DNA of 64,000 nt from assembly GCF_011761235.1 (NCBI RefSeq), contig NZ_JAAOYW010000001.1, positions 248,781-312,780 of the forward strand, in the 5' to 3' direction. The stretch is from Frigoribacterium faeni. GTDB lineage: Bacteria > Actinomycetota > Actinomycetes > Actinomycetales > Microbacteriaceae. The first letter of the stretch is position 1. Each line of letters opens with the position of its first letter. The translations under genes were made by a program, and so were the position numbers. This document shows positions 49,774 to 55,713 of the stretch, piece after piece. The notes under the pieces are model-generated. The model was given only the letters and a program-made list of their open reading frames with translations. It did not search any database and was not told where the DNA came from.

Positions 49774-51897
49774 TCAGACGTCGATGCGGTCCCGGCTGAG
49801 ACCCGCTCCGTCGATGATGAACTCCTTGCGGGGAGCGACCTCGTTGCCCATGAGCAGCTCGAAGACGCGGGCGGCCGCCTCGGCGTCGTCGACGCGCACC
49901 CGGCGCAGCATGCGACCCGAACGGTCCATGGTGGTCGAGGCGAGCTGCTCGGCGTCCATCTCGCCGAGGCCCTTGTAGCGCTGGATCGGGTCCTGGAACT
50001 TCTTGTTCGACCGCCGCAGCTTGGCCAGGAGCGTCTGCAGCTCTTTCTCGGAGTACGTGTAGATGGTCTCGTTGGGCTTGCTGCCGGGGTTGACGACGAC
50101 CACCCGGTGGAGGGGCGGCACGGCCGCGAAGACCCGGCCCTCCTCGATCATCGGGCGCATGTAGCGGAAGAACAACGTGAGCAGCAGCGTGCGGATGTGC
50201 GCCCCGTCGACGTCGGCGTCGCTCATGATGATCACCTTGCCGTAGCGCGCCGCGTCGAGGTCGAACGATCGACCCGACCCTGCCCCGAGCACCTGGATGA
50301 TGGAGGCGCACTCGACGTTCGACAGCATGTCGCTGACCGACGCCTTCTGGACGTTGAGGATCTTGCCCCGGATCGGCAGGAGCGCCTGGTACTCGCTGTT
50401 GCGTGCCAGCTTGGCCGTGCCCAGGGCCGAGTCGCCCTCGACGATGAAGAGCTCGCTGTTCGCGACGTCGTTCGAGCGGCAGTCGACCAGCTTCGCGGGC
50501 AGGGACGAGTTCTCGAGCGCGTTCTTGCGGCGCTGCGTCTCCTTGTGGGCGCGCGCGGCGATGCGCGACTTCATCTCGGACACGACCTTGTCGAGCACGA
50601 GGGCGGTCTGTGCCTTGTCCTCCCGGCGCGTCGACGCGAAGAGCTCGCCGAACCGGGAGGCGACGACGTTCGCCACGATCGCCCGGACCGCCGGGGTCCC
50701 GAGGATCTCCTTGGTCTGGCCCTCGAACTGCGGCTCGGGGAGGCGCACCGTCAGCACGGCGGTCAGCCCGGCGAGGACGTCGTCCTTCTCGATCTTGTCG
50801 GTGCCGACCTTCAGCCGACGCGCGGCCAGCTCGACCTGCTGTCGCATGAACTTGAGCAGCCCCGCCTCGAAGCCGGCCTGGTGCGAGCCTCCCTTCGGGG
50901 TCGCGATGATGTTGACGTAGCTGCGCATCACGGTCTCGTAGCCGCCGCCCCAGCGAAGGGCGATGTCGACCTCGCACTCCCGCTCGAGCTCGGTCGCGAC
51001 CATGGCGCCGCCCTCGGTCAGCACCGGGACGGTCTCGGTGTACGTGCCCGTTCCCGTCATCCGCCACGTGTCGGTGACGGGGGCGTCGGGCGCCAGGAAC
51101 TCGACGAACTCGCTGATGCCGCCGTCGAAGCGGTAGGTGCTCTCGAGCGGGAAGCCGCCGTCGGTCAGCGAGCCGGGTCGTTCGTCGCGGATGCGGAGCG
51201 TCAGGCCGGGGATCAGGAAGGCCGTCTGGCGGGCCCGACCCGACAGCTCGTCGGGCTGGAACGAGGCGCCGCGCGTGAAGATCTGCCGGTCGGCCCAGTA
51301 GCGGATGCGGGTGCCCGTCACGCCCCGCTTGACCTTGCCGACCTCGCGCAGGACGCTGCCGGAGACGAAGGGCGTGAACGGCGCGTCGGGGGTCGGCTCG
51401 CCGTCGTCGGCGAACGTGCCGGGCTCGCCCCTCCGGAACGACATCGCCCAGGTCTTGCCGCCGCGGTCGACCTCGACGTCGAGGCGCTCGGACAGGGCGT
51501 TGACGACGGAGGCGCCCACGCCGTGCAGACCGCCGGACGACGCGTACGAGCCGCCGCCGAACTTGCCGCCCGCGTGGAGCTTCGTGAAGACCACCTCGAC
51601 GCCGGTCAGGCCCGTCTTGGGCTCGATGTCGACGGGGATTCCCCGGGCCGTGTCGCGCACCTCGACGCTGTCGTCGGCGTGCAGGACCACGTCGATGGCG
51701 TCGCCGTGGCCGCCCAGGGCCTCGTCGACGGAGTTGTCGATGATCTCCCAGAGGCAGTGCATGAGGCCCCGGGAGTCGGTCGAGCCGATGTACATGCCGG
51801 GCCGCTTGCGCACGGCCTCGAGCCCCTCGAGCACGGACAGGTGGCGGGCCGAGTAGTCCGACGTGGCGATGGTGTTCTCCTGACGCGATGCGATCAC
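49774..51897 (-). CDS. parE: DNA topoisomerase IV subunit B
   Basis: This 707-residue GHKL ATPase subunit has LEAVRKRPGMYIGSTDSRGL, the ATP-binding EIIDNSVDEAL, the glycine-rich GGKFGGGSYASSGGLHGVGA, the toprim motifs FIVEGDSALGTAKLARN and IIMSDADVDGAHIRTLLL, and the closing QRYKGLGEMDAEQLASTTMD. With ParC it decatenates and relaxes DNA. The start is taken as the GTG at 51897; a -10 element TAGAAT lies about 37 bp upstream. No good ribosome site precedes this GTG, so the start is less certain than the gene. Confidence 0.92.
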   Translation of the reverse strand: MIASRQENTIATSDYSARHLSVLEGLEAVRKRPGMYIGSTDSRGLMHCLWEIIDNSVDEALGGHGDAIDVVLHADDSVEVRDTARGIPVDIEPKTGLTGVEVVFTKLHAGGKFGGGSYASSGGLHGVGASVVNALSERLDVEVDRGGKTWAMSFRRGEPGTFADDGEPTPDAPFTPFVSGSVLREVGKVKRGVTGTRIRYWADRQIFTRGASFQPDELSGRARQTAFLIPGLTLRIRDERPGSLTDGGFPLESTYRFDGGISEFVEFLAPDAPVTDTWRMTGTGTYTETVPVLTEGGAMVATELERECEVDIALRWGGGYETVMRSYVNIIATPKGGSHQAGFEAGLLKFMRQQVELAARRLKVGTDKIEKDDVLAGLTAVLTVRLPEPQFEGQTKEILGTPAVRAIVANVVASRFGELFASTRREDKAQTALVLDKVVSEMKSRIAARAHKETQRRKNALENSSLPAKLVDCRSNDVANSELFIVEGDSALGTAKLARNSEYQALLPIRGKILNVQKASVSDMLSNVECASIIQVLGAGSGRSFDLDAARYGKVIIMSDADVDGAHIRTLLLTLFFRYMRPMIEEGRVFAAVPPLHRVVVVNPGSKPNETIYTYSEKELQTLLAKLRRSNKKFQDPIQRYKGLGEMDAEQLASTTMDRSGRMLRRVRVDDAEAAARVFELLMGNEVAPRKEFIIDGAGLSRDRIDV

Positions 51898-52089: not shown

Positions 52090-52317
52090 ATGACTCAGAT
52101 GGCCACCGACCACACCGCCGTCGACGAGCTCGGCTCCCGTTACCAGCTCACCGCGGCCGACCGTTGCGACAGCTGCGGGGCCCAGGCCTACGTCCGCGTC
52201 ACCATGGCGAGCGGCGAGCTCCTCTTCTGCGCCCACCACGGCGCGAAGGTCAAGGACAAGCTGCAGCCGACCGCCGTCGAGTGGCTCGACGAGAGCTCGC
52301 GACTGCACCAGGACTGA
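52090..52317 (+). CDS. Small zinc-binding protein (DUF7455 type)
   Basis: This 75-residue protein has a treble-clef-like pair, CDSCGAQAYVRV and LFCAHHGAKVKDKL, where two Cys and a Cys/His pair likely bind zinc. It matches the short actinobacterial family placed next to parE and sigA. Its function is unknown. The ATG is preceded by an excellent GGAGGAG site, and the leader (51980–52089) is comparatively AT-rich, so it is probably highly expressed. An 18-bp terminator follows directly. Confidence 0.87.
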   Translation: MTQMATDHTAVDELGSRYQLTAADRCDSCGAQAYVRVTMASGELLFCAHHGAKVKDKLQPTAVEWLDESSRLHQD

Positions 52318-52352: not shown

Positions 52353-52393
52353 GACGAAGGGCCCGCATCCGTCGAGGATGCGGGCCCTTCGTC
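52353..52393. terminator. Bidirectional terminator between the DUF7455 gene and gatD
   Basis: GACGAAGGGCCCGCATCC (52353–52370) pairs perfectly with GGATGCGGGCCCTTCGTC (52376–52393), an 18-bp stem with a 5-nt loop. It serves the small zinc protein and the end of the sigA–murT–gatD operon. Confidence 0.92.
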
Positions 52394-52407: not shown

Positions 52408-53163
52408 TCACATCGCCTTGAAGGCGCGCTCCAGGTTCTCGCGGATGACCCGCTGGGACTGCGCGGCGTACTCGTCGAGCTTCGCGTGCGCGGCTCCCGG
52501 GTGGTACGAGATGCTGCGCCGCGTCAGCGCGGCGCGCAGCACCCGGTCGCTGAGGGCCGGGTTGAGCGGCAGGAGCGGCCCCTTGAGCTGGGTGCCGAAG
52601 GAGGCGCCCCGCAGGACGCCCTCGGCGCCCGCGGTGCCGTTGCCCCCGCCGTGCACCACGTGGCCGAACGCCTGCACGCCGTCGCCGAGCTCGAGGTGGG
52701 CGGCGTGGTCCTCGAAGCCGAAGAGGGTCAGCTCGTCGCCGCCGTAGGAGGTCGTCACCTGGAAGTAGTTGGTGCGGCGGGGAGCGCCGCGTCGGACGAG
52801 CGCGTCGAAGAACCCGATGCCCGGGACGGTCTCGCCCTCGTCGGTCACGACGCCCTTCGTCAGCAGCTCCATGCCGCCGCCGACGCCCACGACCGGCACG
52901 CCGGAGGCCGCGAAGCCCTCGAGGGCGGGCAGCAGCCGCTGTGCGTCGGCGCTGACCGCGCGCACGCCCGAGAGCGGCCCGTGGCCCAGCAGCACGACGT
53001 CGGCGACCGTGGGCACGTCGTCCCCGACGCGGTACTCGACGACCTCGGTCTCGAGGCCGGCGCGGCCGGCCCGGGCCACGAGCGTCGACACGTTGCCGCG
53101 GTCGCCGCTGACGCCGAGCTGCTCGGGGTAGAGGTGGACGAGACGGAGGGTGTCGGCGCTCAC
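52408..53163 (-). CDS. gatD: GatD-like class I glutamine amidotransferase, catalytic dyad missing
   Basis: This 251-residue protein has the GatD layout: LRLVHLYPEQLGVSGDRGNV at the start, VVLLGHGPLSGVRAVS, the nucleophile-elbow region at about 90–100, and a C-terminal TQLKGPLLPLNPALSD. In active GatD the elbow reads roughly V-C-G-G-Y-Q and a later motif reads Y-L-H-G-P. Here they read V-G-G-G-M-E (Gly95 in place of Cys) and Q-L-K-G-P (Lys194 in place of His). It therefore should not hydrolyse glutamine. The frame is intact, and the GTG overlaps the murT stop as GTGA. It is probably a structural or regulatory partner of MurT. Confidence 0.85.
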   Translation of the reverse strand: MSADTLRLVHLYPEQLGVSGDRGNVSTLVARAGRAGLETEVVEYRVGDDVPTVADVVLLGHGPLSGVRAVSADAQRLLPALEGFAASGVPVVGVGGGMELLTKGVVTDEGETVPGIGFFDALVRRGAPRRTNYFQVTTSYGGDELTLFGFEDHAAHLELGDGVQAFGHVVHGGGNGTAGAEGVLRGASFGTQLKGPLLPLNPALSDRVLRAALTRRSISYHPGAAHAKLDEYAAQSQRVIRENLERAFKAM

Positions 53164-54419
53164 GCGGTCTTCTCCAGGTCGGGGTGCCCGAGGATGCGGC
53201 GGGCCAGCATCATCTGCTCGTAGTTGGTGACGAAGTGCTTCGTACGGTCGCCGGGCGACGGCAGCGCGCGCATGAGCTTGATGGCCTTCGCGATGTCCTC
53301 CTCGATGACGTGCACCGGGATGCCCTCGTGCTCGAGCCGCAGCGCGAGCTGCCAGGCCTTGGCGCCGGCGAGCACGTCGACGTGGTCGAGGTGCGAGAAG
53401 TCGATGTCGTAGATCCACGAGATGTCGGGCGTGCCCTCGTCGATCGCCAGCATGACCTGCTCGACGTCCTGCGGCAGCGCGTCGAGGTTGAGCTGGAGGC
53501 TCGCGGCGTTCTTGAACATGATGAACTCCGCCTCGTCCGTGCCGAGGGACATGCGCTCGCCCCGGCCGTAGGCGGGCTTCATGGTCTCGAACGCCTCGGC
53601 GACCGACGCCGGGTCGACGGGACGGCCCAGGACGACGGAGGCCGTCTGCAGGGCGGCGGCCGCGTCGACCGCGTAGTGCAGGCCGCGCGCGGGCAGGCGC
53701 ACGTCGACCTCCTCGTCGCCGACACGGATGCGTGCGCGGTCGCCCGTCAGGGAGACGACCTCGGACTCGGCCCGGCGGGTGCCGTCCGCCTCGCGGGTGA
53801 AGTCGTTCGCGTTCTGCAGCCCGTTGGGCGCGGCCGCGACGACGTCGGGCGCCGCGCCGAAGCGCGTGACGACCTGGCCCGGTCGCGCCTCGTAGGGCGC
53901 CAGGTGCTGGTCGTCGCGGTTCGTGACGACCGCCGCGGTCGCGAGGGCGGCCGTGTCCGTCATCATCGTGCCGACGCGCTCAGTCTCGAAGAACCGGTAG
54001 AGCTGGTCGACCTGCACGTTGAGCATGAGCACGGTCGACGGGTGCAGCGACCGGGTCAGCTCGACCGCGAAGGCCTCGTCGACCTCGATCACGCCGATGT
54101 CGTGCTTCACACGACCGAAGGGCGTGACCTCGCGGAGGAAAGCCGAGGCGATGCCCTGGGGCAGGTTCGCCCCCGTCGGGTTGGTGAAGACGCGGAGCCC
54201 ATGGGCCCGGAGCGTCTCGGTGAGCATCATCGTCGTCGTGGACTTGCCGTTCGAGCCGAGGACGAAGACGACCCCCTGGTCGAACTGCGACGACACGTGC
54301 GTGAGGAAGTCGGGCGCCAGGGCGAGGACGGTGCGGCCCGGGTAGGCCGACCCGCCGCCGCGGAGGCGTGCGACGGCGCGGACGAGACGGCCCGCGAGGA
54401 CGGGCACGAGGTACTTCAC
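53160..54419 (-). CDS. murT: MurT-like Mur ligase lacking the zinc ribbon
   Basis: This 419-residue cytosolic Mur-ligase-fold enzyme has the ATP loop VFVLGSNGKSTTTMML (about residues 52–67), NPTGANLPQGIASAFL, IGVIEVDEAF, NVQVDQLYRF, and the C-terminal MurT domain (DUF1727) with PAYGRGERM, MFKNAASLQLNLDAL and PDISWIYDIDFSHLD. MurT with GatD normally amidates the alpha-carboxyl of D-Glu in lipid II. The Cys4 zinc ribbon usually inserted in the middle domain is absent: there is no Cys in the whole protein, and residues about 175–222 replace it. It starts with a GTG four bases after the sigA stop. Confidence 0.88.
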   Translation of the reverse strand: MKYLVPVLAGRLVRAVARLRGGGSAYPGRTVLALAPDFLTHVSSQFDQGVVFVLGSNGKSTTTMMLTETLRAHGLRVFTNPTGANLPQGIASAFLREVTPFGRVKHDIGVIEVDEAFAVELTRSLHPSTVLMLNVQVDQLYRFFETERVGTMMTDTAALATAAVVTNRDDQHLAPYEARPGQVVTRFGAAPDVVAAAPNGLQNANDFTREADGTRRAESEVVSLTGDRARIRVGDEEVDVRLPARGLHYAVDAAAALQTASVVLGRPVDPASVAEAFETMKPAYGRGERMSLGTDEAEFIMFKNAASLQLNLDALPQDVEQVMLAIDEGTPDISWIYDIDFSHLDHVDVLAGAKAWQLALRLEHEGIPVHVIEEDIAKAIKLMRALPSPGDRTKHFVTNYEQMMLARRILGHPDLEKTA

Positions 54420-54423
54420 GGGC

Positions 54424-55713
<1,290 letters not shown>

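Follow-up and report, generated by a model that had tools for sequence, protein, structure and literature searches.

The MurT-GatD pair encoded in the window, i.e. the whole stretch of 64,000 nucleotides analysed here, is, judged by its residues, a diverged variant of MurT-GatD and is not filed as an isoglutaminyl synthase, because defining residues of this enzyme, namely those of the GatD dyad, were tested and are replaced. Its glutaminase-type subunit (variant GatD in the following) lacks both catalytic residues and, as a new finding, the pair is replaced in relatives at the sigA-parE locus by a CofE-like ligase or by a second dyad-less MurT-GatD. With a probability put at roughly 0.55, its partner (variant MurT) would be a ligase that attaches an amino acid to the D-Glu alpha-carboxyl, variant GatD serving as a structural or amino-acid-binding pseudo-glutaminase.

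A GatD homologue without catalytic dyad

Table 1. Features of the window around the variant gatD-murT pair, in order of position.
Feature	Position	Strand	Remark
parE/gyrB-type topoisomerase subunit	49774..51897	-	in relatives, outer boundary of the exchangeable locus on the right
Small Cys-containing protein	52090..52317	+	convergent to gatD; bounds the exchangeable locus on the right
Perfect G+C-rich inverted repeat GAAGGGCCCGCATCC..GGATGCGGGCCCTTC	52356..52390	.	terminator-like, located where gatD and the small gene converge; read from sequence
Variant gatD, GatD homologue without catalytic dyad (pseudo-glutaminase)	52408..53163	-	GTG start, 251 aa
Lys194, codon AAG	52582..52584	-	at the catalytic His189 site of S. 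aureus GatD; alignment
Arg129, codon CGC	52777..52779	-	equals glutamine-sequestering Arg128, kept; alignment
Gly95, codon GGC	52879..52881	-	at the catalytic Cys94 site of S. aureus GatD; alignment
Variant murT, MurT ligase partner	53160..54419	-	419 aa, P-loop GSNGKSTTT, without zinc-ribbon Cys; 4-nt overlap with gatD
Asp332 of variant MurT	53424..53426	-	equals S. aureus MurT Asp349, third triad residue; coordinate computed from residue number
sigA-type sigma factor	54424..55713	-	directly upstream of murT; left neighbour of the cassette

An earlier note, made from the letters of the window, had described gatD as coding for a GatD homologue with both catalytic residues replaced, and this description proved correct, down to the exact positions of the two codons. 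In a phmmer search the product could be aligned over its entire length with GatD of S. aureus (5n9m/6gs2, E ~5e-18) and with the S. pneumoniae protein (6fqb), whereby Gly95 and Lys194 take the places of Cys94 and His189, the two residues required of a lipid II isoglutaminyl synthase. Cys94 is the nucleophile with which GatD releases ammonia from glutamine. The oxyanion-site glycines are retained, and the GatD fold is kept in the predicted model (AlphaFold pLDDT 93), whose best PDB match is GatD 6gs2 with a TM of 0.86. Neither variant GatD nor variant MurT of the window holds a single Cys (0 in each), and hence the zinc ribbon of MurT is gone as well. Both proteins are encoded once in the genome, so that its sole GatD is the one without dyad. 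The open reading frame is intact and shares the four nucleotides GTGA with murT; the product of the convergent small gene is one which we take to be DUF7455-like. An artefact or sequencing error as cause of the dyad loss was ruled out, as the state is common to congeners and family.

From work with S. aureus it is known that Arg128 of GatD holds glutamine and that the exchanges C94A, H189A and R128A abolish the glutaminase activity (PMC5871853), while amidation is abolished or severely reduced in GatD C94S and C94G and in MurT D349N (PMC6113224). Considering these inactive Cys94 and His189 mutants, a GatD with Gly95 and Lys194 should be inactive, and glutamine-dependent amidation by the protein of the window appears unlikely.

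Properties of the ligase subunit

In variant MurT the P-loop and the residues E107, D109, E110, N129, D133, R281 and D327 (trimmed-alignment numbering) are conserved as in canonical MurT, from which it is distinguished by a set of diagnostic changes (P-loop T to S, R83Q, G302S; same numbering); the P-loop and the acidic residues of the Mg site are both in place. The predicted model (AlphaFold pLDDT 91) has the MurT fold and matches best a MurT chain (9sqj, TM 0.66), with MurF ranking after the MurT entries of the fold search. Across the clade of related pairs the equivalent of Asp349 is retained in 89 of 90 sequences. Variant MurT hence looks like a working ligase family rather than a remnant. 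Nei-Gojobori estimates for nine pairs of relatives yielded a dN/dS of 0.09-0.21 for gatD and 0.01-0.15 for murT, and both genes are under purifying selection. Decay of gatD is ruled out by these values, and the view of the earlier note that the gene is intact and no decaying pseudogene holds, given the low dN/dS, the conserved ligase residues and the fixed locus described below.

Comparison with characterized systems places the pair next to the MurT-GatD lipid II isoglutaminyl synthases (S. aureus 6gs2/6h5e, S. pneumoniae 6fqb, S. pyogenes 9sq9), with which it shares the gene pair, both folds, the MurT ATP site, MurT Asp349 and GatD Arg128, but from which it differs in the replaced Cys94 and His189 and in the missing zinc-ribbon cysteines. 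The NCBIfam MurT-GatD equivalog models are missed by far, with 77 bits against a cut-off of 450 and 102 bits against 800. The ATP-dependent Mur-ligase core is the same as that of MurC-MurF, a core for which amino acids are the natural acceptors. Relative to these UDP-binding Mur ligases, however, the N-terminus of both MurT and variant MurT is truncated, and the latter is paired with variant GatD.

Distribution of the dyad loss

The searches covered the window's family (150 genomes), its order (149) and the phylum (396 and 296), and the dyad was read in the fetched loci. The sampled family is taken as Microbacteriaceae by means of a sigA signature, which is specific to that family in the order sample and of whose 26 named matching genomes 25 belong to Microbacteriaceae genera and one is an Actinomycetales MAG. 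Variant MurT and variant GatD form a single branch (support 100) restricted to Microbacteriaceae. Cys94 is kept in none of its 90 aligned pairs (G, A, S, T or N stand in its place), and the His189 site holds H, K, Q, G, N or S, with His in 59 of 90. The dyad states G/K, G/H, A/H, G/Q and G/G occur, amongst others; as only the Cys loss is universal, the G/K of the window is one state among many. The loss of both residues noted for the window thus extends to the whole clade for Cys94, but only to part of it for His189. Congeners (92-93% identity) have the same G/K dyad, and the nearest named relative among the sigA-signature matches is Frigoribacterium sp. Leaf186 (78% for GatD, 87.5% for MurT).

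In other families the Cys/His dyad was found in 75 of 77 GatDs (24 of the order, 38 of 40 elsewhere in the phylum and 13 further), the exceptions being L257, whose Cys is replaced by Ser with His retained, and L268 (Gly/Leu), to which a dyad-less MurT-GatD fusion (L300) was later added. Mapping the dyad in relatives, as had been proposed on the basis of the window, thereby revealed a family-wide loss in Microbacteriaceae that is almost absent elsewhere, and the label 'isoglutaminyl synthase', where given by similarity, is probably wrong for most of this family.

Individual genomes deviate from the one-pair arrangement: three Microbacteriaceae genomes harbour a Cys/His pair together with a dyad-less one (L070/L084, L016/L090, L011/L097), and two different dyad-less pairs per genome were found in G111 and G145 (L074/L106, L117/L118). 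In two Microbacteriaceae genomes of 1.4 Mb (L132, L138) the dyad-less GatD is recognisable only partly, mainly in its N-terminal half.

Exchangeable ligases at the sigA-parE locus

Variant MurT was found less than 1 kb from the sigA signature in 80 of the 80 genomes in which both were located. Most Microbacteriaceae without it possess, in the same sigA-parE interval, a CofE-like amide ligase of the PF01996 family (loci L192, L194-L196, L200, L201, L203-L210, L213-L218 and L162). Like the CofE/FbiB F420:glutamate ligases, members of this family are amide ligases; in sequence the family is unrelated to variant MurT. The Microbacteriaceae proteins are 62-76% identical to the CofE-like reference and are divergent members of the family, far below the cut-off of the CofE equivalog model (34 against 181 bits). 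An ATP-grasp gene is usually part of their loci, and genes resembling alanine racemase (Alr-like) were found in 11 of the 21.

Among the 150 family genomes, 98 carry variant MurT, 11 a second type of dyad-less MurT-GatD termed N3 (confirmed through sequence or position in ten, in G005 through a weak score only) and 21 (14%) the CofE-like cassette, while 14 have canonical copies only and 6 have none. The canonical Cys/His copies are located elsewhere in the genome, and in the genera concerned the sigA-parE interval holds the small gene only. Dyad-less MurT-GatD (109 genomes) and a strong CofE-like match (21) overlap in no genome (Fisher p 1e-14, phylogeny ignored). Unlike this p value, the contrasts found within genera are largely independent of phylogeny: swaps were seen within ten genera, five between variant MurT and the CofE-like ligase, one between the CofE-like ligase and N3 and four between variant MurT and N3, and genus g78 provides an additional contrast of the first kind. 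That these ligases displace each other at a fixed locus suggests that they do the same job.

Two further arrangements were encountered. In genus g45 (L198, L211) the sigA-parE interval contains an amino-acid ABC transporter and no ligase, and in L296 and L294 a CofE-like domain lies beside, or in one open frame with, an AsnB-type asparagine synthetase/amidotransferase.

A second dyad-less MurT-GatD and neighbouring racemases

The N3 pairs have His/Ile, His/Leu or Gly/Leu at the dyad positions, MurT cysteines consistent with a zinc ribbon and Asn at the position of Asp349, and they form a clade apart from variant MurT. That all dyad-less MurT-GatD go back to one origin was moderately rejected (AU test, p 0.0285, with long branches involved), and the dyad loss in N3 looks independent of that in the clade of the window. 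Both ligase types occur together in genus g49 (L133, L137), in the order cofE-like, murT and gatD (Gly/Leu), followed in L133 by Alr-like genes.

Outside Microbacteriaceae, an actinomycete of 61% GC, perhaps Collinsella-like, combines murT, a dyad-less gatD (Gly/Leu) and a gene for the ornithine racemase Orr in one run (L268:147-3424). The racemase, a probable maker of D-ornithine, matches the Orr model NF040742 over its full length, its 423 bits falling short of the cut-off (480); the adjoining MurT-GatD belongs to a dyad-less clade separate from that of the window's pair. In another genome of the same genus the C-terminal part of MurT and a dyad-less GatD are fused, and the next gene is CofE-like (L300:2-2181). 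Among the regions read from other Actinomycetota, G609 alone has Orr adjoining MurT-GatD, and at the locus of the window's own pair neither Orr nor any other racemase or amino-acid gene adjoins it. The racemase-bearing cassettes point to D-amino acids as their co-substrates.

Relation to group B peptidoglycan

In group B walls the bridge is carried on the D-Glu alpha-carboxyl, and group B peptidoglycan has served taxonomists as a hallmark since Schleifer and Kandler (1972). The literature searched yielded no paper on the enzyme that places the bridge on D-Glu or on genes of group B biosynthesis. Among the carriers of variant MurT are Cryobacterium (B2gamma), Frigoribacterium and Frondihabitans (both B2beta) and Compostimonas (B1), the wall types being literature values at genus level. 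An exact strain match is given by Subtercola vilae DB165, which carries the variant pair and whose wall is B2gamma according to a strain-level literature value.

A group B ligase would be expected only in a group B lineage, and variant MurT was seen only in Microbacteriaceae among the 396 phylum-wide genomes. Beyond the phylum, group B is represented by separate lineages, namely Erysipelothrix, Eubacterium limosum and Acetobacterium. It would further be expected in every group B species unless replaced, but in L. ruminantium, the one Leucobacter examined, the sigA locus is empty and the only pair, of the Cys/His type, lies elsewhere in the genome, although Leucobacter has cross-link type B (PMC4804768). 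Hence a one-to-one tie between dyad loss and group B was ruled out: the loss is confined to the family, but a group B wall does not depend on it, and the link to group B rests on this restriction to Microbacteriaceae. No MurT was found in Klugiella, which together with five other sampled genomes (g47 being among the cassette-less) has neither a MurT-GatD nor a CofE-like cassette.

The correlation of Cys94/His189 loss with peptidoglycan type that the earlier note had proposed to look for is thereby not borne out one to one, given the Leucobacter exception and the 14% of genomes with the CofE-like cassette. Its broader idea, that the complex may have been repurposed in Microbacteriaceae with group B peptidoglycan to attach an amino acid, fares better: the family-wide loss, the selection and the retained ligase residues support it, and the exchange with another amide ligase, together with the racemase neighbours, fits amino-acid ligation.

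Proposed reaction and alternatives

The proposed reaction assumes that variant MurT converts a carboxylate of the peptidoglycan precursor into an acyl phosphate; the group in question would most likely be the D-Glu alpha-carboxyl, which is amidated by homologues of variant MurT. In place of glutamine-derived ammonia, an amino acid would then be joined to the activated carboxylate, and given the group B walls of the family this may be the first residue of the cross-bridge, i.e. a diamino acid or glycine. The role of variant GatD would be structural or the binding of an amino acid, its Arg128 site being retained. The genera carrying variant MurT span B1, B2beta and B2gamma with different diamino acids, and the specificity would therefore have to vary. 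An observation against amino-acid ligation is that Asp349 is retained despite the loss of both its triad partners. Still, the pair is a good candidate for the maker of the unusual wall cross-link of Microbacteriaceae. It is further conceivable, though doubtful, that the unrelated amide ligases, i.e. variant MurT with its pseudo-glutaminase, the independently dyad-less MurT-GatD and the CofE-like ligase with its racemases, constitute an exchangeable sigA-parE cross-bridge cassette, each attaching the bridge amino acid to the D-Glu alpha-carboxyl, whereby a swap would switch the group B subtype.

Alternatively, the variant pair and the CofE-like cassette might be ligases acting on another envelope carboxyl, such as that of the bridge diamino acid, of teichoic acid or of another polymer, and share with group B only the membership in the family. 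The presence of the pair, which does not follow group B strictly and spans several wall subtypes at genus level, would agree with this, but for the nearest relatives the target is the D-Glu alpha-carboxyl of lipid II (PMC6113224), and the clade occurs only in a family known for group B walls, so that such a target is regarded as rather unlikely. Formation of isoglutamine or another amide from free ammonium, with variant GatD as scaffold only and the amide residing either on D-Glu that is not cross-linked or on the bridge diamino acid at its carboxyl, would account for the retained Asp349, for the entire ligase core and for the retained, predicted GatD fold. It leaves unexplained, however, why the glutaminase was given up and why the locus is exchanged for a CofE-like ligase with racemase genes, and in group B walls the alpha-carboxyl is occupied by the bridge; this explanation is considered improbable.

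Amino-acid ligation on D-Glu, which remains the preferred reading, would make murT-gatD of the window's type and the CofE-like gene concrete candidates for D-Glu bridge ligation in common cultivable genera, and would be a case of a Mur ligase whose acceptor changed although, apparently, the dead glutaminase subunit was retained. That variant GatD still frees ammonia by a replaced mechanism, e.g. with another nucleophile, for which the retained Arg128 and oxyanion-site glycines might speak, is very unlikely, as neither catalytic position is fixed for any residue within the clade and neither window protein contains a Cys. Equally remote is a decaying or purely regulatory remnant: the catalytic residues are lost, GatD evolves fast (mean column identity 44%) and some species lack the pair, but dN/dS is low, the locus is fixed, the ligase residues are conserved and the frames are intact in nearly all sampled genomes.
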